The notes beneath the pieces are model-generated. The model made no database searches. It had not been told where the DNA came from and saw nothing but the letters and a program-made list of their open reading frames with translations. 25,632 nucleotides of DNA from a virus. Where the stretch lies: the IMG/VR virus record IMGVR_UViG_3300030329_006306, positions 1 through 25,632 of that record; one strand, written 5' to 3'. Position numbers and translations under genes: made by a program. Positions 3,988-25,497 of the stretch are shown here, piece after piece (positions within the stretch are counted from its first letter, which is position 1; each line of letters starts with the position of its first letter).

Positions 3988-4708
3988 GTACACCGCTACA
4001 AGCTACATAAACAAAGGGGCTTTGAAGCTTTCTCAGCCCTTACTAGCCCTTACTGCCCTGACGGTAGAGGACATTCGGTCGCGTGTCCTTAACACAGGTA
4101 TTAGTGCTACGGGCAACCGGTTCACTAGGTATGCTCCGAGCACTATCAAGACACGTAAGCGCTTAGGCCTTCAGACTGCTTTCAAGGACTTCAATCGCTC
4201 TGGTACGATGTGGAACTCTTTGAAGGTCAAGCTCCAGACGCCTGCTAAGGTCACGTCTGCTTTCACAGGTAGAGCCGCTCACGGGAAAGTGAAAGGCAAG
4301 AGGCGAAAGCCGGGACCTAAAGGGGGCACGGTCACCTTCAGGAAGCTCACAAACAACCGGCTCGCCCGTATTCTTAATCACAGGGAGCGCGTCTCCATCA
4401 TGAACGGCAGGCTCGCCGAGCTAGAGGAGCACCTGCCTTTGTTCGGTGATTACCTTACTGGAGAGGTGCTGACCGCCGTGGGTTTGCAGGAGCAGGCCTT
4501 CCAGGTGCAGAAGAAGGTTAGGTCTGCTAGGCGTAAAGTGCAGCGAGCATTGAAACTTCGGAGAATACACGGTATTCCTTCTGCGACGGCTTATAGAAAG
4601 AAGAAAGCGGTCAGGCGCAGCCGGCGTAAATTTGACTTGCGCAAGCTTCTCGCCCCTAAAGGACAGCTACCCGGTGAGAAGAAGATTTACCTGAACACCT
4701 TTGGATAG
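3962..4708 (+). CDS. Basic head-completion or virion morphogenesis protein
   Basis: 248 aa from a TTG at 3962, supported by GGGAGAG seven bases upstream; it overlaps the portal gene by 26 bases. Residues about 30-90 carry a pattern common to phage morphogenesis and neck proteins: helix, F-x-x-YAPSTIKTRKRLGLQT, then DFNRSGTMWNSLKVK. After that the protein is unusually rich in Lys and Arg (GKVKGKRRKPGPKGG; KKVRSARRKVQRALKLRR; YRKKKAVRRSRRKFDLRK), and very few acidic residues balance the C-terminal third. A neck or connector role is suggested by the N-terminal pattern and by position after the portal. The basic C-terminal region could contact DNA or be an internal head component. Specific function is not proven. 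Confidence 0.6.
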   Translation: MLIPKIKLEYTATSYINKGALKLSQPLLALTALTVEDIRSRVLNTGISATGNRFTRYAPSTIKTRKRLGLQTAFKDFNRSGTMWNSLKVKLQTPAKVTSAFTGRAAHGKVKGKRRKPGPKGGTVTFRKLTNNRLARILNHRERVSIMNGRLAELEEHLPLFGDYLTGEVLTAVGLQEQAFQVQKKVRSARRKVQRALKLRRIHGIPSATAYRKKKAVRRSRRKFDLRKLLAPKGQLPGEKKIYLNTFG

Positions 4709-8713: not shown

Positions 8714-9970
8714 ATGGGAATCCCAACAACGCTTGGACGCTTTGCCGTAAAAGAGCAAGCCTCTGGATGGGGCACGCCTGAGACCTCGTTCGCCAACGCG
8801 AACTACCTCGAGGCTCAGATTATGGTGCCGACCCCCGGTCAGGCTTCGGTCCAGGCTGATGTCATGCGGGCGAGTTGGTTCGCCACAACCCGCGTCGACG
8901 GCGGGAAGGGCCCGACGGAGCTGTCGCTGACGATGCCTCTGCATGGGTTCTCTACGGCTGCCCCTACGGGCGACCCTACAGAGCACCCGGACTCCCTTCT
9001 TCTTCGCTCGGTCCTCGGCGCAAACGTCGCCGCTGCGTATGCAACGGACCTCACTGGGGGGGCTGCTGGCACCGCGACGGTGACTACGGCAGACAACTAC
9101 GTTGGATGTGCTGTGTTGGCTCCTATGGACTCGACGTCTCCTACGGAGTACTCCGCCGGCTGGATTAAGGACCGGGACACCAACGAATACACCATGCAAC
9201 GCAACTGGGCTCTGACCTCTGCTGGAGGGGCGCAGACGCCTTCTACCTCTGTGACTACGCTCTACGGGTCCAACGTGGTCTACCTGACGAACACCCAGCC
9301 CACTCCTTTCACTCTGGAGTGGCTGGGTTCTACGGCTAACGTCAAGTTCCGGTTCTCGGACTGCGTGGTCACCAGTGCAACCATCAACCTCAACGCTCGA
9401 GAGCAGCCGCAGTTGGCGGTCACCATCCGCTCGGCGAACTGGGCAAACGTCGGGTCAGGCGGAGCTCCCTCCGCAGAGGCCCTTACTAACCGTCCTCAGA
9501 TGCCGGTTGTCCTTAGTGACAACGGAGCGCGCGTGGTTAGCTCGCAGGGTGAGCAGAAGGCGGGAAGCGCGACCATTACGATGACCGCAGAGGTCGCGGA
9601 TGAGCTGAACTACGATGCTCCTCAAGGCATCTCCAAGTTCGTCGTTCTCAAGCGTAACGTCGAAGTGTCTATGGTTGCGCCTGCGATGTCGGACGCTACC
9701 AGCAATGACGTGCTTGCAAACCCTGGAAGCCTCCTCACCCCAGGTGCCGACGCGGGTGCTGTCCAGCTCGACGCGGGAACTACTCCAGGTCGCGCGTTTT
9801 CGGCCCTTATCCCCTCCGGTCAGGTCAAGGAGCTCCAGGCTCTTGGTGACAACAACTCACTTGTGAGTATCACCACTGTGCTGGAATGTGCTATCTACTC
9901 GGGAGACACGGCAACTACGGGTGCTCTTGGCTCTGTCGCCAACACCCCGTTCCGTGTCGCTTTCTTGTAG
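8714..9970 (+). CDS. Major tail tube protein
   Basis: 418 aa, ATG 8714, two bases after the preceding stop. Thr/Ser/Ala-rich and beta-rich throughout: TELSLTMPLHGFSTAAPTG, PFTLEWLGSTANVKFRFSDCVVTSATINLNAREQPQLAVTI, SATITMTAEV. The strand sequence containing FSDCVVTSATINL resembles the core sheet of tube proteins. At 418 aa it is longer than a typical tube subunit (150-300 aa), so extra surface domains are likely. The neighbour order terminator, tube, chaperone G/GT, tape measure is the classic one and carries most of the weight. Confidence 0.75.
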   Translation: MGIPTTLGRFAVKEQASGWGTPETSFANANYLEAQIMVPTPGQASVQADVMRASWFATTRVDGGKGPTELSLTMPLHGFSTAAPTGDPTEHPDSLLLRSVLGANVAAAYATDLTGGAAGTATVTTADNYVGCAVLAPMDSTSPTEYSAGWIKDRDTNEYTMQRNWALTSAGGAQTPSTSVTTLYGSNVVYLTNTQPTPFTLEWLGSTANVKFRFSDCVVTSATINLNAREQPQLAVTIRSANWANVGSGGAPSAEALTNRPQMPVVLSDNGARVVSSQGEQKAGSATITMTAEVADELNYDAPQGISKFVVLKRNVEVSMVAPAMSDATSNDVLANPGSLLTPGADAGAVQLDAGTTPGRAFSALIPSGQVKELQALGDNNSLVSITTVLECAIYSGDTATTGALGSVANTPFRVAFL

Positions 9971-9990: not shown

Positions 9991-10395
9991 ATGGCACTGG
10001 GACTAATCAAGACAACGGAGCAGGCCGCGCTGGTATGTAAATCCGACCCGGCTATCGGTGAGGAAACTGACGAATGGGTCGAGGTTTCAAAGGCGAAGGG
10101 AGCGAAGAAGAAGGGAGCTACAATCGTGGTTGTACGCGCCCTGAACGACCGGGAGCTCATGCGATGCTCCGGGACGTTTCGCTCCATCAACTACGACTCT
10201 GTAGACGAAGCTTCGACTCTTCAGCTCGCGGAGGCTATGGAAAACGTGATCTCCGCAGCCTTCATCCGATGCGAAGAGGGCAAGGAGGTCTGCGAGGAAG
10301 TAGACGTCGTCCTTCAATCCATCAAGCTCGGACCTCTTTTGGCTCTGGGCTCGTGGGTACTCGCTGCTTCCGGGATGGGCGCGGACCCCACCTAA
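9991..10395 (+). CDS. Tail assembly chaperone, short form (G-like)
   Basis: 134 aa from ATG 9991. The Shine-Dalgarno is only GGGG four bases upstream, and an earlier in-frame reading would run inside the tube gene. Sequence is helical in its second half (DEASTLQLAEAMENVISAAFIRC; CEEVDVVLQSIKLGPLLALGSWVLAASG). It sits between the tube and tape-measure genes, where siphophages encode the chaperone that coats the tape measure during tail assembly and is absent from virions. Its stop (10393-10395) is followed by a long open frame in the -1 phase with no credible start, which is the usual sign of the G/GT frameshift pair. Confidence 0.8.
   Translation: MALGLIKTTEQAALVCKSDPAIGEETDEWVEVSKAKGAKKKGATIVVVRALNDRELMRCSGTFRSINYDSVDEASTLQLAEAMENVISAAFIRCEEGKEVCEEVDVVLQSIKLGPLLALGSWVLAASGMGADPT
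10386..10392 (+). other. Candidate -1 programmed frameshift site
   Basis: The last codons of the short chaperone read GAC CCC ACC TAA. The run C-CCC (10386-10389) lets a Pro tRNA in the P site re-pair perfectly after slipping back one base. The next codon then becomes CAC, and translation continues in the frame of the downstream extension. There is no canonical XXXYYYZ heptamer near the stop. The GGACCCC and CTTTTG runs nearby fit worse. The site lies one codon before the stop codon, so slow termination may help. Inference from sequence only. Confidence 0.45.
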
Positions 10396-10715
10396 GCGAG
10401 CACGTCCGTGTAGCTGCGTGGCTAGACGTTCTCGCTGAAGCACATGGTCTCAAGTGCGCCTCTGGCGATTCAAGCGCTTGCAAGGGTCGCTGCGAGCACC
10501 GTGCGGGCTTCTATCTGGGTCGTCCTTGGGAAAGGTGTCCCGTCGCTGCGTTGAATGACAACGCACGCGTTCGGTACGTCCTGACCCTCGAGCATCATTC
10601 TCGTCTCTCGCCTCTGTCGGGGTGGCCGGACGAGTACGCTGCGTGGGTGCCGGGCATATGGTCTGCGTTGGTGCAGGCTCGGTCTCAGCGACAGACACAT
10701 AAAGTGAAGGGGTAA
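10389..10715 (+). CDS. Tail assembly chaperone frameshift extension (GT-like)
   Basis: Extension of about 108 codons read in the -1 frame relative to the short chaperone, giving a fusion of about 241 aa. In this frame no ATG or GTG occurs after 10389 and the first TTG is at 10551, so it is unlikely to be a free-standing gene. An ATG at 10269 would overlap by over 120 bases and lacks a ribosome binding site. The peptide is plausible as protein: CEHRAGFYLGRPWERCP and WPDEYAAWVPGIWSALVQARS. The segment from its Cys-Pro to the Trp-rich end resembles the second half of other siphophage chaperones, which link the tape measure to the growing tube. Several Cys (CASGDSSACKGRCEH) could bind metal; this is speculative. 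Confidence 0.72.
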   Translation, partial: HLSEHVRVAAWLDVLAEAHGLKCASGDSSACKGRCEHRAGFYLGRPWERCPVAALNDNARVRYVLTLEHHSRLSPLSGWPDEYAAWVPGIWSALVQARSQRQTHKVKG

Positions 10716-10718
10716 GAG

Positions 10719-13256
10719 ATGGCACAGGCAGCAAGTTTTAGTGTCATCCTGGAGGCTCAGAACAACCTCAAGGCTGTCTTGAATCAAGCCAACGGGATGA
10801 TTCGACAGTCTACCGACGAGCTGAAGAAAGCCTCTGCGGCCCAGTCCAAGATGGGCAGCATCATCGACGATGTTAAGGCCAAGGTCTTCTCTTTTAGGGG
10901 AGGTCTGGTTGCTTTAGGGAGTGCAGCCGTTGCTGCATCCAAGCCTCTCTTTGACTTCGCCATGCAGGGTGCAAAGCTCGCTGATCAGCTGGACTTTGTT
11001 AGCGCTCGTGTAGGCAACATGGACCAGTTGATGGCGCAGGCCCGCGAAGCTACGGGCGGCATGGTTGATGACGCTCAGCTAGCGAAGGGCATCGCCTTGA
11101 TGGACTCCTTCGGGCTGGAGCTCGATAAGATGCCCGAACTGTACGAGCAGGCAGCGAAGGCTTCTCTGCGTACAGGCGACAGCATGGACATACTGCTCGA
11201 CAGTGCTGTCCGTGGTATCGCACGCCTGAGTCCGCGCATCATCGACAATATGGGCATCCAGGTTGAGCTGTCGGAGGCTACGCAGGTCGCTGCGGACATG
11301 TTCGGCATTGAGGCGGATGCTGTTGACGAGACCCAGAAGAAAGCAGGTCTCTTATCTGTGGTCTTGCGCGAACTGGGTAAGCTCAACCGGGACGTGGACC
11401 TTAATAAGTCACGCGTAGCCTCTTTGAAGTCCGTGTCGACGGCGTTCACTAACTTCAAGAACACCTTAGCAAAAGACTGGGCGGACTTATTCACATCCAC
11501 GGGCGATAGGCTTGAAGAGTTTGCCCATCAAAGCAAGGTCGCACTCAATAAGGCCGATGACGCCTGGGCGAGGACTGAGGACAATATTCGTAAACGGATA
11601 GCGAATATTGGGACCATCATGGATTCCTCCGCAAAGCTTAACCTCACTGTTTTCCGAGAGCAGGCTCTTGTTCAAGAAGAGATGGCAGCTCGGAGGGAGT
11701 TGGAGGCTGAGCAACTAGCTCGCGCAGGCATGCTTGAGGCAAAGATTAACACGGAGCTCATCAATCAGCGTGTGCTCATGCTTGAGAAGGGCAAGTGGAG
11801 ACTCTTTGACCAAGAGCAGCTCGAAAAGGTAACGAAGCGGATTACCCTCCAGGAGGAAGAGCGGAACAGGAAGGAGACGGCTGCCCTGAAGGCTCGTTTC
11901 CAGGCGCGCAGGCTAGAGGAGCAGGAGAGAAGCAAGGCTGATCGAGCCCGCATCAAAGACATGACTGAGATGACTCGCATCGCCATGGGCGAGAGTCAGG
12001 CTCAGATTAACTTGGAGAACCAGAAAGAACTGGTGAACAAGTTAAGGAAGGAGGGCAAAGGGCTAGAGGACGGTACTCTCGCAGCTGCGGAGAATCTGTT
12101 AGTCAAGTACGGTCAGATCGTCGACAAGCAGAACGAGCGCAAAGGTGCTTCTCGCAGCATCAAAAAGAGCGAGGAAGACAACACCCAAGAGCTCTTAGCC
12201 CAGATAGAAGCACTCGAGCGAAAGAACAAGCTGGCTGCGGAGGGTGATCCTCGGAGGAAGGCGGAGCTCAAGTCGGGTTTCGCCTTACTGGACATGCTCA
12301 AGGAGGCGGAGAAGTTCGAGGAGAAGGGTCTTGATGCGCAGTTCTTGAAGGCGAAGTTCACCGCTCTGGAACTTCAGCACAAACAAGACATTGCCAACAT
12401 CGACGCGGATGACGCGGAGGCTAGGTTCCGTGTCAGAATGGCTCAACACGAGGTAGACCTGCTCCAGGAGATCACAGAAGAGGACCATATCCGGCTGGAA
12501 TTGCAGGCGCAGATTGCGGAAATTAATCACACTACGTTGGCGGGCGAAGAGCGTAGGCTTCTGATCAAAGCCGCTGAAATAGACGCGACTACTCAGCTGC
12601 GCGACCTCGAGCAAGAGCGGCTTGAGGCAAACATGGCTACCCTTGGGGAGGGCGTTGGAGAGGCCTTTGATAAAGGCTCGCGATTGCTCAAGGATATGGA
12701 TAAGGACTTGAAGGCACTCAATCGGGAGGAGCGCTTCACAAACGTCATTGAGGGCTTCCAGGGGATTAGCGCCGCCCTCCCCAAGGCGGCAGAGGCCTTC
12801 TCCGCCCTTGGAGATTCCTCCTTATCCGCAGGAGATAAGGTGGCGGGAGGCATAGCGGCAGGCTTGGGCGCAATCGGCCCCTCCGTGGCGGGCTTCGTAA
12901 ACGGGACCCGTGAAAAGGCAGCTATCATGGCTGCGTTTGAGTTGGCTATGGGGTTTGCGACTATCATGACGCCTTGGGAGTCCGCAGCTCACTTCGCCGC
13001 TGCTGCAATGTTTGGCGTTATAGCAGGCACGGCAGCAAGCATGCCTACTACTGCGGTGGCTGAAGAGGAGACGCCAGGCGCAGGCGACTTAATCACTCCC
13101 GCAGCTGAGCGCCCTCGAGAAGACGCCCCCGCGAGTTTCACCATCAACCTCGGGCCGGGCACAATCTTCGGGCTCCCCCAGGAGATGGGGGCGCAAATCG
13201 CCGAGCGCATCAACTCGATGTCAGGTTCCGGCTTCGAGGAGTCCACTGCGTTCTAA
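10719..13256 (+). CDS. Tape measure protein
   Basis: 845 aa, ATG 10719 with AAGGGG six bases upstream. It sets tail length and is thought to line the tube lumen before passing into the host envelope. The N terminus (FSVILEAQNNLKAVLNQANG) begins long helical stretches. Residues about 300-660 are highly charged coiled coil (Glu/Lys/Arg/Gln-rich). Near residues 700-780 come Ala/Gly-rich hydrophobic segments (KVAGGIAAGLGAIGPSVAGF; AAFELAMGFATIM; AAAAMFGVIAGTAASM) able to cross a membrane. At the usual rate of roughly 1.5 angstrom per residue the tail would be about 125-130 nm. No peptidoglycan hydrolase motif is evident. It ends in a TAATG overlap with the next gene. Confidence 0.93.
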   Translation: MAQAASFSVILEAQNNLKAVLNQANGMIRQSTDELKKASAAQSKMGSIIDDVKAKVFSFRGGLVALGSAAVAASKPLFDFAMQGAKLADQLDFVSARVGNMDQLMAQAREATGGMVDDAQLAKGIALMDSFGLELDKMPELYEQAAKASLRTGDSMDILLDSAVRGIARLSPRIIDNMGIQVELSEATQVAADMFGIEADAVDETQKKAGLLSVVLRELGKLNRDVDLNKSRVASLKSVSTAFTNFKNTLAKDWADLFTSTGDRLEEFAHQSKVALNKADDAWARTEDNIRKRIANIGTIMDSSAKLNLTVFREQALVQEEMAARRELEAEQLARAGMLEAKINTELINQRVLMLEKGKWRLFDQEQLEKVTKRITLQEEERNRKETAALKARFQARRLEEQERSKADRARIKDMTEMTRIAMGESQAQINLENQKELVNKLRKEGKGLEDGTLAAAENLLVKYGQIVDKQNERKGASRSIKKSEEDNTQELLAQIEALERKNKLAAEGDPRRKAELKSGFALLDMLKEAEKFEEKGLDAQFLKAKFTALELQHKQDIANIDADDAEARFRVRMAQHEVDLLQEITEEDHIRLELQAQIAEINHTTLAGEERRLLIKAAEIDATTQLRDLEQERLEANMATLGEGVGEAFDKGSRLLKDMDKDLKALNREERFTNVIEGFQGISAALPKAAEAFSALGDSSLSAGDKVAGGIAAGLGAIGPSVAGFVNGTREKAAIMAAFELAMGFATIMTPWESAAHFAAAAMFGVIAGTAASMPTTAVAEEETPGAGDLITPAAERPREDAPASFTINLGPGTIFGLPQEMGAQIAERINSMSGSGFEESTAF

Positions 13257-21049: not shown

Positions 21050-21268
21050 ATGCTCAAACCACGTAATATCACCGCAGCACTTCCTGATGTCACGCCGCGT
21101 AAGGCCGGCGATTGGCTCCGTGGGGACCGTTCCCCCAGCGTCATCGACCTCGGGCGTATCCTCCAGGCCTTCCCTGACCTCGACGCACGCGAGTTCGTCA
21201 TGGAGCTCGGGCGTCGAAGGGAAGAGAGGATGCGTTTGGAGGCTATCGTCAAGGCTCAGCGCGCCTAG
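21050..21268 (+). CDS. Small HTH (XRE/Cro-like) regulator
   Basis: 72 aa from ATG 21050, with GGAGAGAG four bases upstream; an in-frame start at 21002 would place the start before the likely promoter. The core reads ITAALPDVTPRKAGDWLRG, then SPSVIDLGRILQAFPDLDAR, the order of a lambda-repressor-like domain: helix 2, turn, recognition helix, then packing helices. The C terminus is a charged helix. It is the only clear transcription-factor-like protein in this half of the map. It converges on the polymerase gene: the two stop codons share the palindrome CTAG (21265-21268). A role in early-to-late switching or autoregulation is inference. Confidence 0.72.
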   Translation: MLKPRNITAALPDVTPRKAGDWLRGDRSPSVIDLGRILQAFPDLDAREFVMELGRRREERMRLEAIVKAQRA

Positions 21269-23139
21269 CCCCCCGGCTCCCACGGTACGAGGCGCGAGTC
21301 GATATATGTCGGCTCTGCGCCTTTGTACCATCTACGCATGAGCGAGGGCTCCGCGCTAATCTTCACGTCTGGGCAGACCTCGGACAGAGCCTCCACCATG
21401 ATGTCGGCGATGCGTTGGGCAGCCTCCGCAGCCTTATCGACGGGGACCTCTGCGATAATCTCATCGTGCATGAGTATCAGCGGGTGTGAGCCGAACAAAG
21501 GCGAGTCCACGTCCGTCCGGCTCTCTTGGGTCACCAGATAGAACGCCCGTTTGGCTCCATCGGCGACAGGACCTTGGAAGTAGTAGTTGCACCCGTTGGT
21601 GAAGCTCAGCCCGCCTCGAGCGCGCCTGGACCTCTCTAGGGTCCCGGTGAAGCTACCTCCGCCCCTTTCGAGCTCGCGGGTAATACGTCGCCAATAGAGC
21701 GACATCTCCGGGTAGGTCTCCACAAAGGTCCTCTTGAGGCTTCTAGCCTGGTCCTCATCGATGTCCAGTCCGTAGGTGGCCGAGGCATAGTCCACGAAGC
21801 TAAGGGCTCCAAGACCTCCTGGATAGCCAAAGTTGAGCGCCTTTGCCAGCTGACGGGCGTCCTTCGCGGCTGGAGAGCCCGCCTTATACCTCGCGTCGAA
21901 GGCGTGGTAATTGATGCCCAAGATGGTCGCCCCCGTAGCCTTGTGCGGGTCCCTCCCTGCATTGATGGTGTCTGCAAGCTTGGACTCGCCGAACCAATCG
22001 ACGCAGACCTGAGCCAAGGTGCAAAGCTCCGCGAAGCTATAGTCCGCAGCAGCGTAGTAGAAGCCCTCTCGAGGCACGTAGCACTCGCGGACACCGGACC
22101 TTCGGGGCTGTTGGGTCAGGTTCGGCTTCGAGCAGGATACCCGGCCTGACTCTACCAGGGTGTTCCACCGAGGGTTGATGGGTCGGTCCACCCCAGCCTT
22201 CAACGTGGGGATGAAAGCGCTGAGCTCTTTCTCGTCACCTGAGACCTCGCCTAGACGGACCAACATGGGGTCACCAGAGCCCAACAGCGTGGTGGTGTCT
22301 GTCTTGGTCGCGCCTTTAGCCGTCTTGGGCGTGCGCTGACCATAAGCCTCTTCGACCCTGCGCCGAATAGCCCCCATATCCTTGGTTCCGTTCTTTCGGA
22401 TGAGCCCCAACTGCGAAGCCTGCGAGCGGACCTCATCCACCGACGCCTTCAACCGGGTCTCCAGGGCATCTACAGCGTCTTTGTCCGTGCGGATGCCCCA
22501 GCATGAAGCCAGGTGCAGCGCCCACGCAGCGCGGTTCTGGTTCGCTTCATCGGGGAGCTCCGTGAGCCCAACGGACTGAGCGTACTGCGTCAACTTCAGC
22601 CACAGGCGCGCGGTGTATTGAACGTCATCTTTGGCGTAGTTCAACGCCTCCGCAGGCCACTGGGACAGCGGCACTTCATCAAGCTCATGGTATCGAAGAC
22701 GCCAAACGTCGGGTCCGGTCTTGCCCTCTACTTTCTCACCGACGAACCGGGCCACGAGGTCACCTAGGGACCACCTCGGGCGGGCACCCTTCTCACCGAT
22801 GGTTGGGTCGAACTTGAACCTGCCCAGGGCGATGGCGATGAGCTGAGCTCGGATGAGCGTGTCCTTTATCCTGCCCTCGTCATAGGCCTTCCAGATAAGG
22901 GGCTCGAGGGAGGGTTCGGCCTGAATCAATACAGCGAGGTCGAAGGGGATATTGTGCCCCACAATCTCTTGAGCCCGCAGACCCCGCTCGAATACAGGCA
23001 CCCAGTCATCTTCTCGGTGGAGGATTTGGACCTCTTGGTCGTCCTCTTTGAAGGTCGGGCACACCAAACGTGGAGCAAGGCGACCCGGCGCGATAAGCCA
23101 CGTCTCTAGGTCGAAGACAAACCGCGTCGGGTCACCCAT
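21265..23139 (-). CDS. DNA polymerase, family A, with 3'-5' exonuclease domain
   Basis: About 624 aa from ATG 23139; AAGGGT seven bases upstream fixes this start, whereas a longer ORF start at 23190 lies inside the upstream gene. DEDDy exonuclease residues are visible: FVFDLET (Asp and Glu, about 10-12), GHNIPFDL (Asp about 67), YAKDDVQYT (Tyr about 168, Asp about 172). Polymerase motif A is AADYSFAELCTLAQ (about 363), motif B is RQLAKALNFGYPGGLG (about 428), motif C is LILMHDEIIAE (about 553). All catalytic Asp are present. No N-terminal 5'-3' exonuclease domain, as usual for phage enzymes. Replicates the phage genome with the helicase and SSB-like neighbours, all leftward. Confidence 0.95.
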   Translation of the reverse strand: MGDPTRFVFDLETWLIAPGRLAPRLVCPTFKEDDQEVQILHREDDWVPVFERGLRAQEIVGHNIPFDLAVLIQAEPSLEPLIWKAYDEGRIKDTLIRAQLIAIALGRFKFDPTIGEKGARPRWSLGDLVARFVGEKVEGKTGPDVWRLRYHELDEVPLSQWPAEALNYAKDDVQYTARLWLKLTQYAQSVGLTELPDEANQNRAAWALHLASCWGIRTDKDAVDALETRLKASVDEVRSQASQLGLIRKNGTKDMGAIRRRVEEAYGQRTPKTAKGATKTDTTTLLGSGDPMLVRLGEVSGDEKELSAFIPTLKAGVDRPINPRWNTLVESGRVSCSKPNLTQQPRRSGVRECYVPREGFYYAAADYSFAELCTLAQVCVDWFGESKLADTINAGRDPHKATGATILGINYHAFDARYKAGSPAAKDARQLAKALNFGYPGGLGALSFVDYASATYGLDIDEDQARSLKRTFVETYPEMSLYWRRITRELERGGGSFTGTLERSRRARGGLSFTNGCNYYFQGPVADGAKRAFYLVTQESRTDVDSPLFGSHPLILMHDEIIAEVPVDKAAEAAQRIADIMVEALSEVCPDVKISAEPSLMRRWYKGAEPTYIDSRLVPWEPGG

Positions 23140-23140
23140 C

Positions 23141-23662
23141 TTAGTTACCCTTGACGGCCCAGCGGACCTTGGTGAAGGGGTTGTTCGCACGGGTAAAGAT
23201 GATGAACGCCTCCACGCGCATCTCCAGCCCGATGGCAGGCGACCCGTTCGGAGCGAACAAGGTGTCCATCACCTGCGGGCTAATCTGACTCTCGGCGATG
23301 CTCTTGGGGTCCTGCCCGTTCTCGAGCGCGACCGCCTGCATGACCGCGAGGCCGAACGCCTTGAGGTTGTCCATCGCACTGGGGAGGCTCATGTTGACCT
23401 TCCACGCGACATCATCACCCTCCATGAAGGTGTTGGGGGACAGGGGCGTGGGAGCAATCGAGTCGTCCAGGTGGGGACGGACACCGGGGGCGTACCCTCG
23501 GACGTTGCACTCCACGATGGCGTACTTTGTGCCCGGGGCCTTTTTGGAGTCGACGACCTTCAGACCGTCCAAGCGGACGACGTAGGTCCCCGGCTCGAAG
23601 TTACGTGAAGAGCCACCACCAATCGAAGCGTTCTCGATACCTGCGAAATGAGACATTGTCAT
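23141..23662 (-). CDS. Single-stranded DNA-binding-like protein (DUF669-like)
   Basis: 173 aa, ATG 23662, preceded by AAGGAGAAGG. The sequence follows the OB-like layout of phage ssDNA-binding proteins next to helicases and polymerases: RNFEPGTYVVRLDGLKVVDS, KAPGTKYAIVECNVRGYAPG, then DVAWKVNMSLPSAMDNLKAF and EMRVEAFIIFTRANNPFTKV. The pattern G-x-Y-x-V near the start, and a strand with K-x-x-G-x-x-Y, are typical. One base separates its stop from the polymerase start. ssDNA-binding is inferred from layout and context; the acidic, Trp-poor C terminus gives no further clue. Confidence 0.65.
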   Translation of the reverse strand: MTMSHFAGIENASIGGGSSRNFEPGTYVVRLDGLKVVDSKKAPGTKYAIVECNVRGYAPGVRPHLDDSIAPTPLSPNTFMEGDDVAWKVNMSLPSAMDNLKAFGLAVMQAVALENGQDPKSIAESQISPQVMDTLFAPNGSPAIGLEMRVEAFIIFTRANNPFTKVRWAVKGN

Positions 23663-23673
23663 TAACCTTCTCC

Positions 23674-25497
23674 TTAATCTTGAATGACCGGCGCGAAGAC
23701 CAACTTCATACGCCCGCCTGTTGTTGACGCCGCATATGCGGCTTTTTTCCGCGCGGATGCGAATGCACTCGCGAACGGTTCGGGTCCGACGAAGGTGAAG
23801 ACCTCCACTTCATCGGCTGTTTGGCCTGCCCGGTGGGTTCGGCCAATGAGCTGCTCCCAGACCTGACCGGAGCTCGGTGGTTCTACCACAACAGAGAGCC
23901 TCCAGGCCTGCAAGTTCAGACCTTTGTGGTGCGCGTTAATACTCACCAGACACGTCCTCGCCGGTCCTCCTGGAGGGTCACCTGGTCCGTGCAAAGGCCA
24001 CCCGGTCGCGCTAGCCAATGCTTCCCCTACTGCGCGGGTCTCATACCAGACCAAGACGGGCTCATCATGACGAGAGACCTCGTCGATGACCGCATCTATC
24101 ATGTAATGAGACAGCCAGACCGGCACCGTGGGGGGAGCGCTCCTGTGGGATACCTTCTCCCATTCATGCAGCGCCGAGTGGATACGGGAGGTCTCCACCA
24201 GCGAGGGCCGCGCATCAATCTCGGCTTGGACCTTACGCTTGACCATCGCGGGCGAATCGTACCCCTCGGCGGACTGCGTCTCCAGCTCCCTACGCACCCA
24301 CCTGGACCAGTGAGACCGGGCCTCGAGCCATTCGTGGTCAACGCGACCTTGGGGCGTGAGCTCCCACGCCCACCTGTAATAGAACCCGGCTGAGACCTGA
24401 CGAAGAGCGCGCCATACGGAAGCGTCGTCCTCGAAGACCTCTTCACCGTTGGGGCTCGTGCCTTGTCTCACCGACTCCATGGCGTCGACAATCTCGTGCG
24501 GCGGGGCTGGAGAGTGCAGGCAATGGATGAGCAGTGAGCACGAAGCAGACTCATCGTCGGTGGTGACCACCCCAGCTGTCGTCGTCAGAAGCTTACAGAA
24601 CGCAGCCCGCGCAGCGTCCCTCTTTTGCTCTCCCCGCATCTGCCTGTGGTTGGCTGGACCATAGGTATCGAGCAGCGGCTCCACGCAAGACCAGTCTGTA
24701 GGTGAGGGTCTACCGTCCGCGTCCAACACGTTGGCCCATGAATCCAGGTGGGAAGTGAGCACCGGCAACGGGGAGTTGAAGCCCAACGCATACTTCGCCA
24801 GATGGGCGTAGTCACGGACAGACCGAGCAGTGAGCGTACCGGACGCAGCTGCGAATACTACCTCTGGATTCTGGTCCAGATACCGCAGCAGACGTCGCGT
24901 GCGAGCGCTGCCTACATGCCTGAGACAGTGAGCCTCATCCGCGAAGATGTAGTCCGGCTTAATCTGGTTGAGTAAATCCCACCCGCCGGGGCTCGAGAGC
25001 GTGGAGTATGCAATGACCTGGACGTAGGGAAGCTTGAAGTGAGGGGCAAACTTCTCGTACTCATCCAAGAACGTCTGCTTCAACGAGGGAGGCACCATCA
25101 CCACCGGGCGTTGGGCTCCGACCATGCAGGCGCCCAAGATAGCCACGAGGGTCTTGCCGTGACCTACCCCGATGGCTCCCAACAGACCTCCCATCGTGCC
25201 CAAGACCGACAGCGCATAGGCCTGGATGGGGCGAAGCTTCATCTCCGCGCCCGGCATGTAGAACATGTTGGAGCGGTCGAGAGCCTCGGCGAAGAGGTCA
25301 TCGTCTGCCCGCATAGTCCGAACTGCACGTTCAGTATCGCTGGGCACACGTCGAGCCTTCTTCAGCAAAGTGTAAACATGGTCCCCCCGCGTCGATGTGG
25401 TTGCTGCTGTATTGTGGTAATCGCGCGGAGGGACCTGCGACGAGGGGTTAACGGGGAGCCCTTCGCCGCGTTTTCTGAGTAGTTCTAGAATATCCAC
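23674..25497 (-). CDS. SF2 helicase / SNF2-like ATPase
   Basis: 607 aa from GTG 25497, which overlaps the stop of the upstream gene by one base (TAGTG); the ribosome binding site is weak. Helicase motifs appear in order: LRPIQAYAL (Q-like, about 88), Walker A GAIGVGHGKTLVA (about 107-119), DEAH (about 187-190), SGTLTARS (about 219-226), a motif V-like INAHHKGLNLQ, and motif VI WEQLIGRTHRAGQT (about 547-560). The GRTHRAGQ box is characteristic of SNF2/Rad54-like proteins. It likely acts as the replicative or remodelling helicase of the phage; phages of this layout often use such proteins. A 130-residue insertion-like region lies between the two lobes. Confidence 0.88.
   Translation of the reverse strand: MDILELLRKRGEGLPVNPSSQVPPRDYHNTAATTSTRGDHVYTLLKKARRVPSDTERAVRTMRADDDLFAEALDRSNMFYMPGAEMKLRPIQAYALSVLGTMGGLLGAIGVGHGKTLVAILGACMVGAQRPVVMVPPSLKQTFLDEYEKFAPHFKLPYVQVIAYSTLSSPGGWDLLNQIKPDYIFADEAHCLRHVGSARTRRLLRYLDQNPEVVFAAASGTLTARSVRDYAHLAKYALGFNSPLPVLTSHLDSWANVLDADGRPSPTDWSCVEPLLDTYGPANHRQMRGEQKRDAARAAFCKLLTTTAGVVTTDDESASCSLLIHCLHSPAPPHEIVDAMESVRQGTSPNGEEVFEDDASVWRALRQVSAGFYYRWAWELTPQGRVDHEWLEARSHWSRWVRRELETQSAEGYDSPAMVKRKVQAEIDARPSLVETSRIHSALHEWEKVSHRSAPPTVPVWLSHYMIDAVIDEVSRHDEPVLVWYETRAVGEALASATGWPLHGPGDPPGGPARTCLVSINAHHKGLNLQAWRLSVVVEPPSSGQVWEQLIGRTHRAGQTADEVEVFTFVGPEPFASAFASARKKAAYAASTTGGRMKLVFAPVIQD

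Follow-up and report, generated by a model that had tools for sequence, protein, structure and literature searches.

The question raised by this locus is how a reading frame that lies in the -1 phase over the end of a short gene, and that has no start of its own at the beginning of its conserved part, is translated. The stretch of DNA analyzed here (the window) is a virus record of 25,632 bases with a tailed-phage structural block that comprises a terminase, a portal-like gene, a capsid gene, a tail tube gene, the short gene (G), the -1-frame extension (T) and a tape measure gene. Both the location between the tail tube and tape measure genes, in which the relatives described below are syntenic, and the second frame over the end of G are as expected of a G/GT tail assembly chaperone. 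To judge from the sequences, the locus is very probably an ordinary G/GT -1 frameshift, at which a weak Z_ZZN tetramer (C_CCY) would act together with a hairpin stimulator (Table 1). Elsewhere in the window, the gene for the large terminase (991-2499) is on the minus strand, opposite to the structural genes that the terminase usually precedes. The minus strand also carries a family A DNA polymerase with 3'-5' exonuclease (21265-23190, within 21265-25497) and a helicase-like gene (23674-25497). Neither tRNA genes nor Rfam matches were found in the window.

Table 1. Features of the putative frameshift locus and its flanking genes (window coordinates).
Feature	Position	Strand	Basis or remark
Tail tube protein, 5' neighbor of G	8714-9970	+	Phage_tube_2 Pfam match weak, below cut-off; synteny conserved
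G-like tail assembly chaperone, 134 aa, 0 frame	9991-10395	+	ORF; position between tail tube and tape measure; AlphaFold2; Foldseek
C_CCC slip tetramer (slip codon CCC 10387-10389, proline 133)	10386-10389	+	Sole motif common to the overlaps of 12 lineages; invariant proline
T domain, -1 frame, 108 aa after the slip	10389-10715	+	Relatives in 12 lineages; AlphaFold2; conserved cysteines
0-frame stop TAA of G	10393-10395	+	Adjacency to slip site not conserved
Candidate stimulator hairpin	10395-10436	+	Folding, -19.4 kcal/mol; covariation
Tape measure protein, 3' neighbor of T	10719-13256	+	PHROG 1e-12, unnamed family; tblastn to annotated tape measure proteins

Pfam and PHROG scans yielded nothing useful for G or for T. 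Among 50,697 annotated phages, the tail tube protein, G and T had no significant relatives and no sequence similarity of G to an annotated phage G was found; T had a weak match to Vibrio phage BONAISHI (E 0.1), and the tape measure protein had weak matches only, to Porphyromonas and Vibrio phages. T and the tail tube protein were also without relatives in 84,980 prokaryote genomes. The AlphaFold2 model of G (pLDDT 81) was compared with known structures using Foldseek. The top match in the PDB was the HK97 tail assembly chaperone 2ob9 (prob 0.66, E 0.25), and the top match in BFVD was again a tail assembly chaperone (prob 1.00, E 0.007), with tail chaperones among the best viral matches. Together with the gene order, these matches of a predicted structure support a tentative assignment of G as a tail assembly chaperone. 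The model of T (pLDDT 85.5) had no fold match in the PDB. Four cysteines of T (residues 23, 31, 35 and 50), three of them invariant, are kept across most relatives and could represent a metal-binding site.

The -1 frame is open from 10071 to 10715 and overlaps G by 322 nt, and its last 108 codons, from 10389 onward, hold the conserved part of T. The last codons of G are GAC CCC ACC TAA. The slip codon can re-pair perfectly in the -1 phase on CCC 10386-10388, which no other site near the stop permits; after such a slip, the next -1 codons read H-L-S-E-H. The overlap contains no X_XXZ_ZZN heptamer. A preliminary description of the locus had placed the end of G at 10395, had pointed to the 108-codon -1 frame and to C-CCC as the sole perfect re-pairing near the stop in the absence of a heptamer, and had derived the junction GADPHLSEH; our ORF analysis agrees with these assignments and with its other coordinates, and the same junction follows from the -1 codons after a slip on C-CCC. 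In one genome alone, such a site is within reach of chance (NNC_CCY makes up 1.1% of the codon pairs in the genes of the window), and its significance comes from conservation.

Successive profile searches of IMG/VR yielded eleven further lineages (12 including the window; designated below by L numbers), in all eleven of which T comes after G in the -1 phase. An in-frame Z_ZZN tetramer that permits re-pairing of a single tRNA, C_CCY, coincides with the homologous proline in 12 of the 12 lineages. The sequence is C_CCC_ACC in the window, L012 and L017, C_CCU_ACC in L003, L005, L011, L021 and L026, C_CCU_ATC in L018, and C_CCU_TTA, that is, the canonical heptamer C_CCU_UUA, in L001, L014 and L027; the codon after C_CCY is ACC in eight lineages, ATC in one and TTA in three. 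Only three residues are invariant in a 12-row alignment of G drawn from 11 of the 12 lineages, and the slip-site proline is among them. Given the proline, the per-genome probabilities of NNC CCY multiply to 10^-12.6 for the 12 lineages if these are treated as independent, which they are only partly. Alignment of the site in related phages had been proposed in the preliminary description as a check on its claim of a tail-chaperone G/GT -1 frameshift with a slip at the C-CCC proline, and the claim gains from the retention of C_CCY in the 11 other lineages. In the close trio, conservation of the -1 frame begins directly after the slip codon. A tree of the lineages calls for two switches between the ACC and TTA types of site, with weak support. 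The clade is represented here solely by metagenome-derived virus records. In more distant relatives of T (L028, L029 and L031-L035), the upstream ORF carries the canonical heptamer G_GGA_AAC close to its end; thus, the wider family uses ordinary slip sites too.

A further element, absent from the preliminary description, is a candidate stimulator hairpin that begins 5-6 nt past the slip codon and is built of a 12-position outer stem with one mismatch and an inner 5-bp stem. Known stimulators begin 4-10 nt past the motif (PMC4066793). A candidate structure within this range, at +5/+6, is present in the window, L003, L005, L017 and L012 and, in weaker form, in L011; it is less clear in L018, L021 and L026, which seem to have differently placed hairpins. 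The 50-nt segment at +5 was ranked against all segments of the same locus, which resulted in Fisher p values of 1.0e-5 for the nine tetramer loci, of 3.7e-4 for six tetramer loci, one per close clade, and of 0.42 for the three UUA loci. The p values given here are inflated by shared ancestry. The results with 40- and 60-nt segments and with GC-adjusted values agree. Downstream structure is enriched in the tetramer group and not in the heptamer (UUA) group. Tested against the remaining in-frame C_CCY tetramers within these loci, the downstream structure gave a Fisher p of 0.008; tested against synonymous-codon shuffles, it gave 0.003 for the nine and 0.04 for the six loci. For the window alone, neither synonymous shuffling (p = 0.25) nor dinucleotide shuffling (z = -0.9 at 60 nt) showed the hairpin to be significant, and synonymous-codon conservation across the signal region was not significant in the close trio (p = 0.23). 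In six ungapped lineages, 78% of the stem cells are paired, versus 30-39% in slid controls, and the alignment of these lineages contains compensatory changes, on both sides of the stem, at five stem pairs. The same stem was recovered independently by RNAalifold on the six lineages; on all 11 rows, RNAalifold gave no common fold. By these comparisons, the hairpin is well supported in that part of the clade to which the window belongs, and tentative outside this part. A Shine-Dalgarno-like stimulator upstream of the site was seen in L017 and L011 only and is not conserved.

From these features, we infer the following course of translation. Most ribosomes would read CCC ACC TAA in frame and release the 134-aa G. 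A minority would move one base back while tRNA-Pro reads CCC 10387-10389, re-pair perfectly on the CCC that begins one base earlier, and go on as P-H-L-S-E-H to a GT fusion with a predicted length of 241 aa and a mass of 26.2 kDa. G and T may both serve in tail assembly. The predicted tryptic peptide across the G/GT junction is LGPLLALGSWVLAASGMGADPHLSEHVR. In the relatives with CCU, the slip from CCU to CCC would replace a wobble pair by a G-C pair, provided that the anticodon is GGG. The hairpin may pause or pull the ribosome and thereby allow a weak site to work, and the spacing fits the proline codon being placed in the A site at the moment when the ribosome meets the hairpin. In the three UUA relatives, the site is completed to the canonical heptamer.

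The position of the slipping tRNA admits a variant of this explanation, with a probability that overlaps that of the explanation itself. The same site would be used, with tRNA-Pro slipping in the P site at a time when the A site (ACC or ATC) is unoccupied or its codon is being read, and without re-pairing in the A site. We regard this variant as possible, but not likely. It would agree with the ACC that comes next in eight of the nine tetramer lineages, although the coding constraint of the -1 frame (YAC C..) largely accounts for this codon, and with the UUA relatives, in which the heptamer necessarily places CCU in the P site. However, the hairpin would then lie only 2-3 nt past the A-site codon, compared with 4-10 nt for known stimulators (PMC4066793).

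That T is expressed as a protein of its own, through internal initiation or termination-reinitiation, is quite improbable. The preliminary description had stated that the 108-codon -1 frame has no ATG or GTG start. This holds for the start of the conserved part of T, where no such codon is present, and none is common to all relatives, but not for the whole open -1 frame, which has ATG codons at 10074, 10164 and 10269 and a GTG at 10353 inside G, as well as late GTG codons within T at 10647, 10671 and 10704. L003, L005 and L017 have a GTG or TTG at the position that matches the GTG at 10353, 34 nt upstream of the slip codon, and in L001 a GTG directly follows the stop. However, the codons 34 nt upstream result from the coding of a Ser-Trp pair conserved in G (TCN TGG), they are absent elsewhere, they are not preceded by a purine-rich ribosome site, and the -1-frame residues between them and the slip site are not conserved. 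Moreover, L011 (= L025) lacks any ATG, GTG or TTG in the -1 frame ahead of the conserved T region, so that T can be expressed there by frameshifting only, and L012 and L026 have no -1-frame start near that region. A homologous phage with a separate start for the extension, which would have spoken against the preliminary description by its own account, was not encountered, and L011 is a case without any.

A -1 slip elsewhere in the 322-nt overlap, at an imperfect site, is very improbable. Other Z_ZZN tetramers do occur in the overlap of the window, for example GGGC 15 nt and TTTG 54 nt before the stop, but none of them is common to all lineages. C_CCY is the only slip motif that is present in every one of the 12 overlaps, which are just 64-73 nt long in L011 and L014, and the hairpin is phased to it.

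Of similarly low probability is an effect of the stop codon, whereby the proline tRNA would slip because termination is slow. CCC_UGA is a known +1 shift site (PMC5009743), and in the window, L003, L005 and L011 the stop comes 3 nt, that is, one codon, after the slip codon. The preliminary description had treated this adjacency as relevant, which is not borne out: the distance is 15 nt in seven lineages (L012, L017, L018, L021, L026, L001 and L014) and 141 nt in L027, so that the stop adjoins in 4 of the 12 lineages only, and even in the window the sense codon ACC separates the slip codon from the stop. The signal therefore does not include the stop. The G-like ORF of L027 ends at 4115, which makes the overlap much longer and lengthens the unshifted product. 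Transcriptional slippage on the four C's would be unlikely with so short a run.

For the clade as a whole, we somewhat favor the view that a natural C_CCY site with an obligate hairpin at 5-6 nt converts to and from C_CCU_UUA, with the hairpin being relaxed in the latter case. Motif strength and hairpin strength are likely to trade off. The related phages represent a natural experiment, a tetramer with a hairpin versus a canonical heptamer without a detectable hairpin, in which such a trade-off could be examined directly.

Several known systems are close to this locus. All Z_ZZN tetramers have been assayed in E. coli, and six of them shift with the IS3 pseudoknot; two of the six are C_CCU and C_CCC, which shift at levels at least 4-fold above background with this stimulator and barely or not without it (PMC4066793). 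The C_CCY motifs rank low among the working tetramers in E. coli, which may not be the host of the phage. The locus resembles these systems in the tetramers themselves and in a candidate stimulator 4-10 nt downstream. It differs from them in that the natural cases are IS1 and IS3 transposase genes, mainly with A_AAG and U_UUY (PMC4066793), whereas here a clade of phage chaperone genes combines C_CCY with a hairpin. With gpG/gpGT of lambda and its long-tailed relatives (PMC5009743), the locus shares the short chaperone with a predicted -1 long form, the position between tail tube and tape measure, and a putative slip near the 3' end of G; the lambda-type sites are typically slippery heptamers, in contrast to the C_CCY tetramer. 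In the Listeria phages PSA, A118 and A500, a phage structural gene also shifts on a proline CCC codon, but in the +1 direction at CCC_U (PMC5009743), whereas the shift in the window would be -1, with perfect re-pairing on the preceding C. Judged by the name of the PRFect motif class (PMC10885494), the GGACCCC of the window would fit 'twoonefour', a two-one-four pattern, and PRFect might catch the site of the window alone; the relatives with CCU, for example GGACCCT in L003 and CGACCCT in L005, would not fit. No natural -1 site of the C_CCY type was found for tail chaperones in the open literature, to which the search, without the original survey of chaperone frameshifts, was confined. The preliminary description had called such a slip uncommon; it did not mention that C_CCC and C_CCU had already been described as weak tetramers that function in the presence of a strong stimulator (PMC4066793). 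The G/GT -1 frameshift is of a known kind, and its C_CCY site is a new variant in the literature searched and only moderately unusual. Frameshift finders that demand XXXYYYZ heptamers miss sites of the C_CCY type, and the clade would provide a natural -1 signal at a proline tetramer that, in the literature searched, is otherwise a weak test construct in E. coli.
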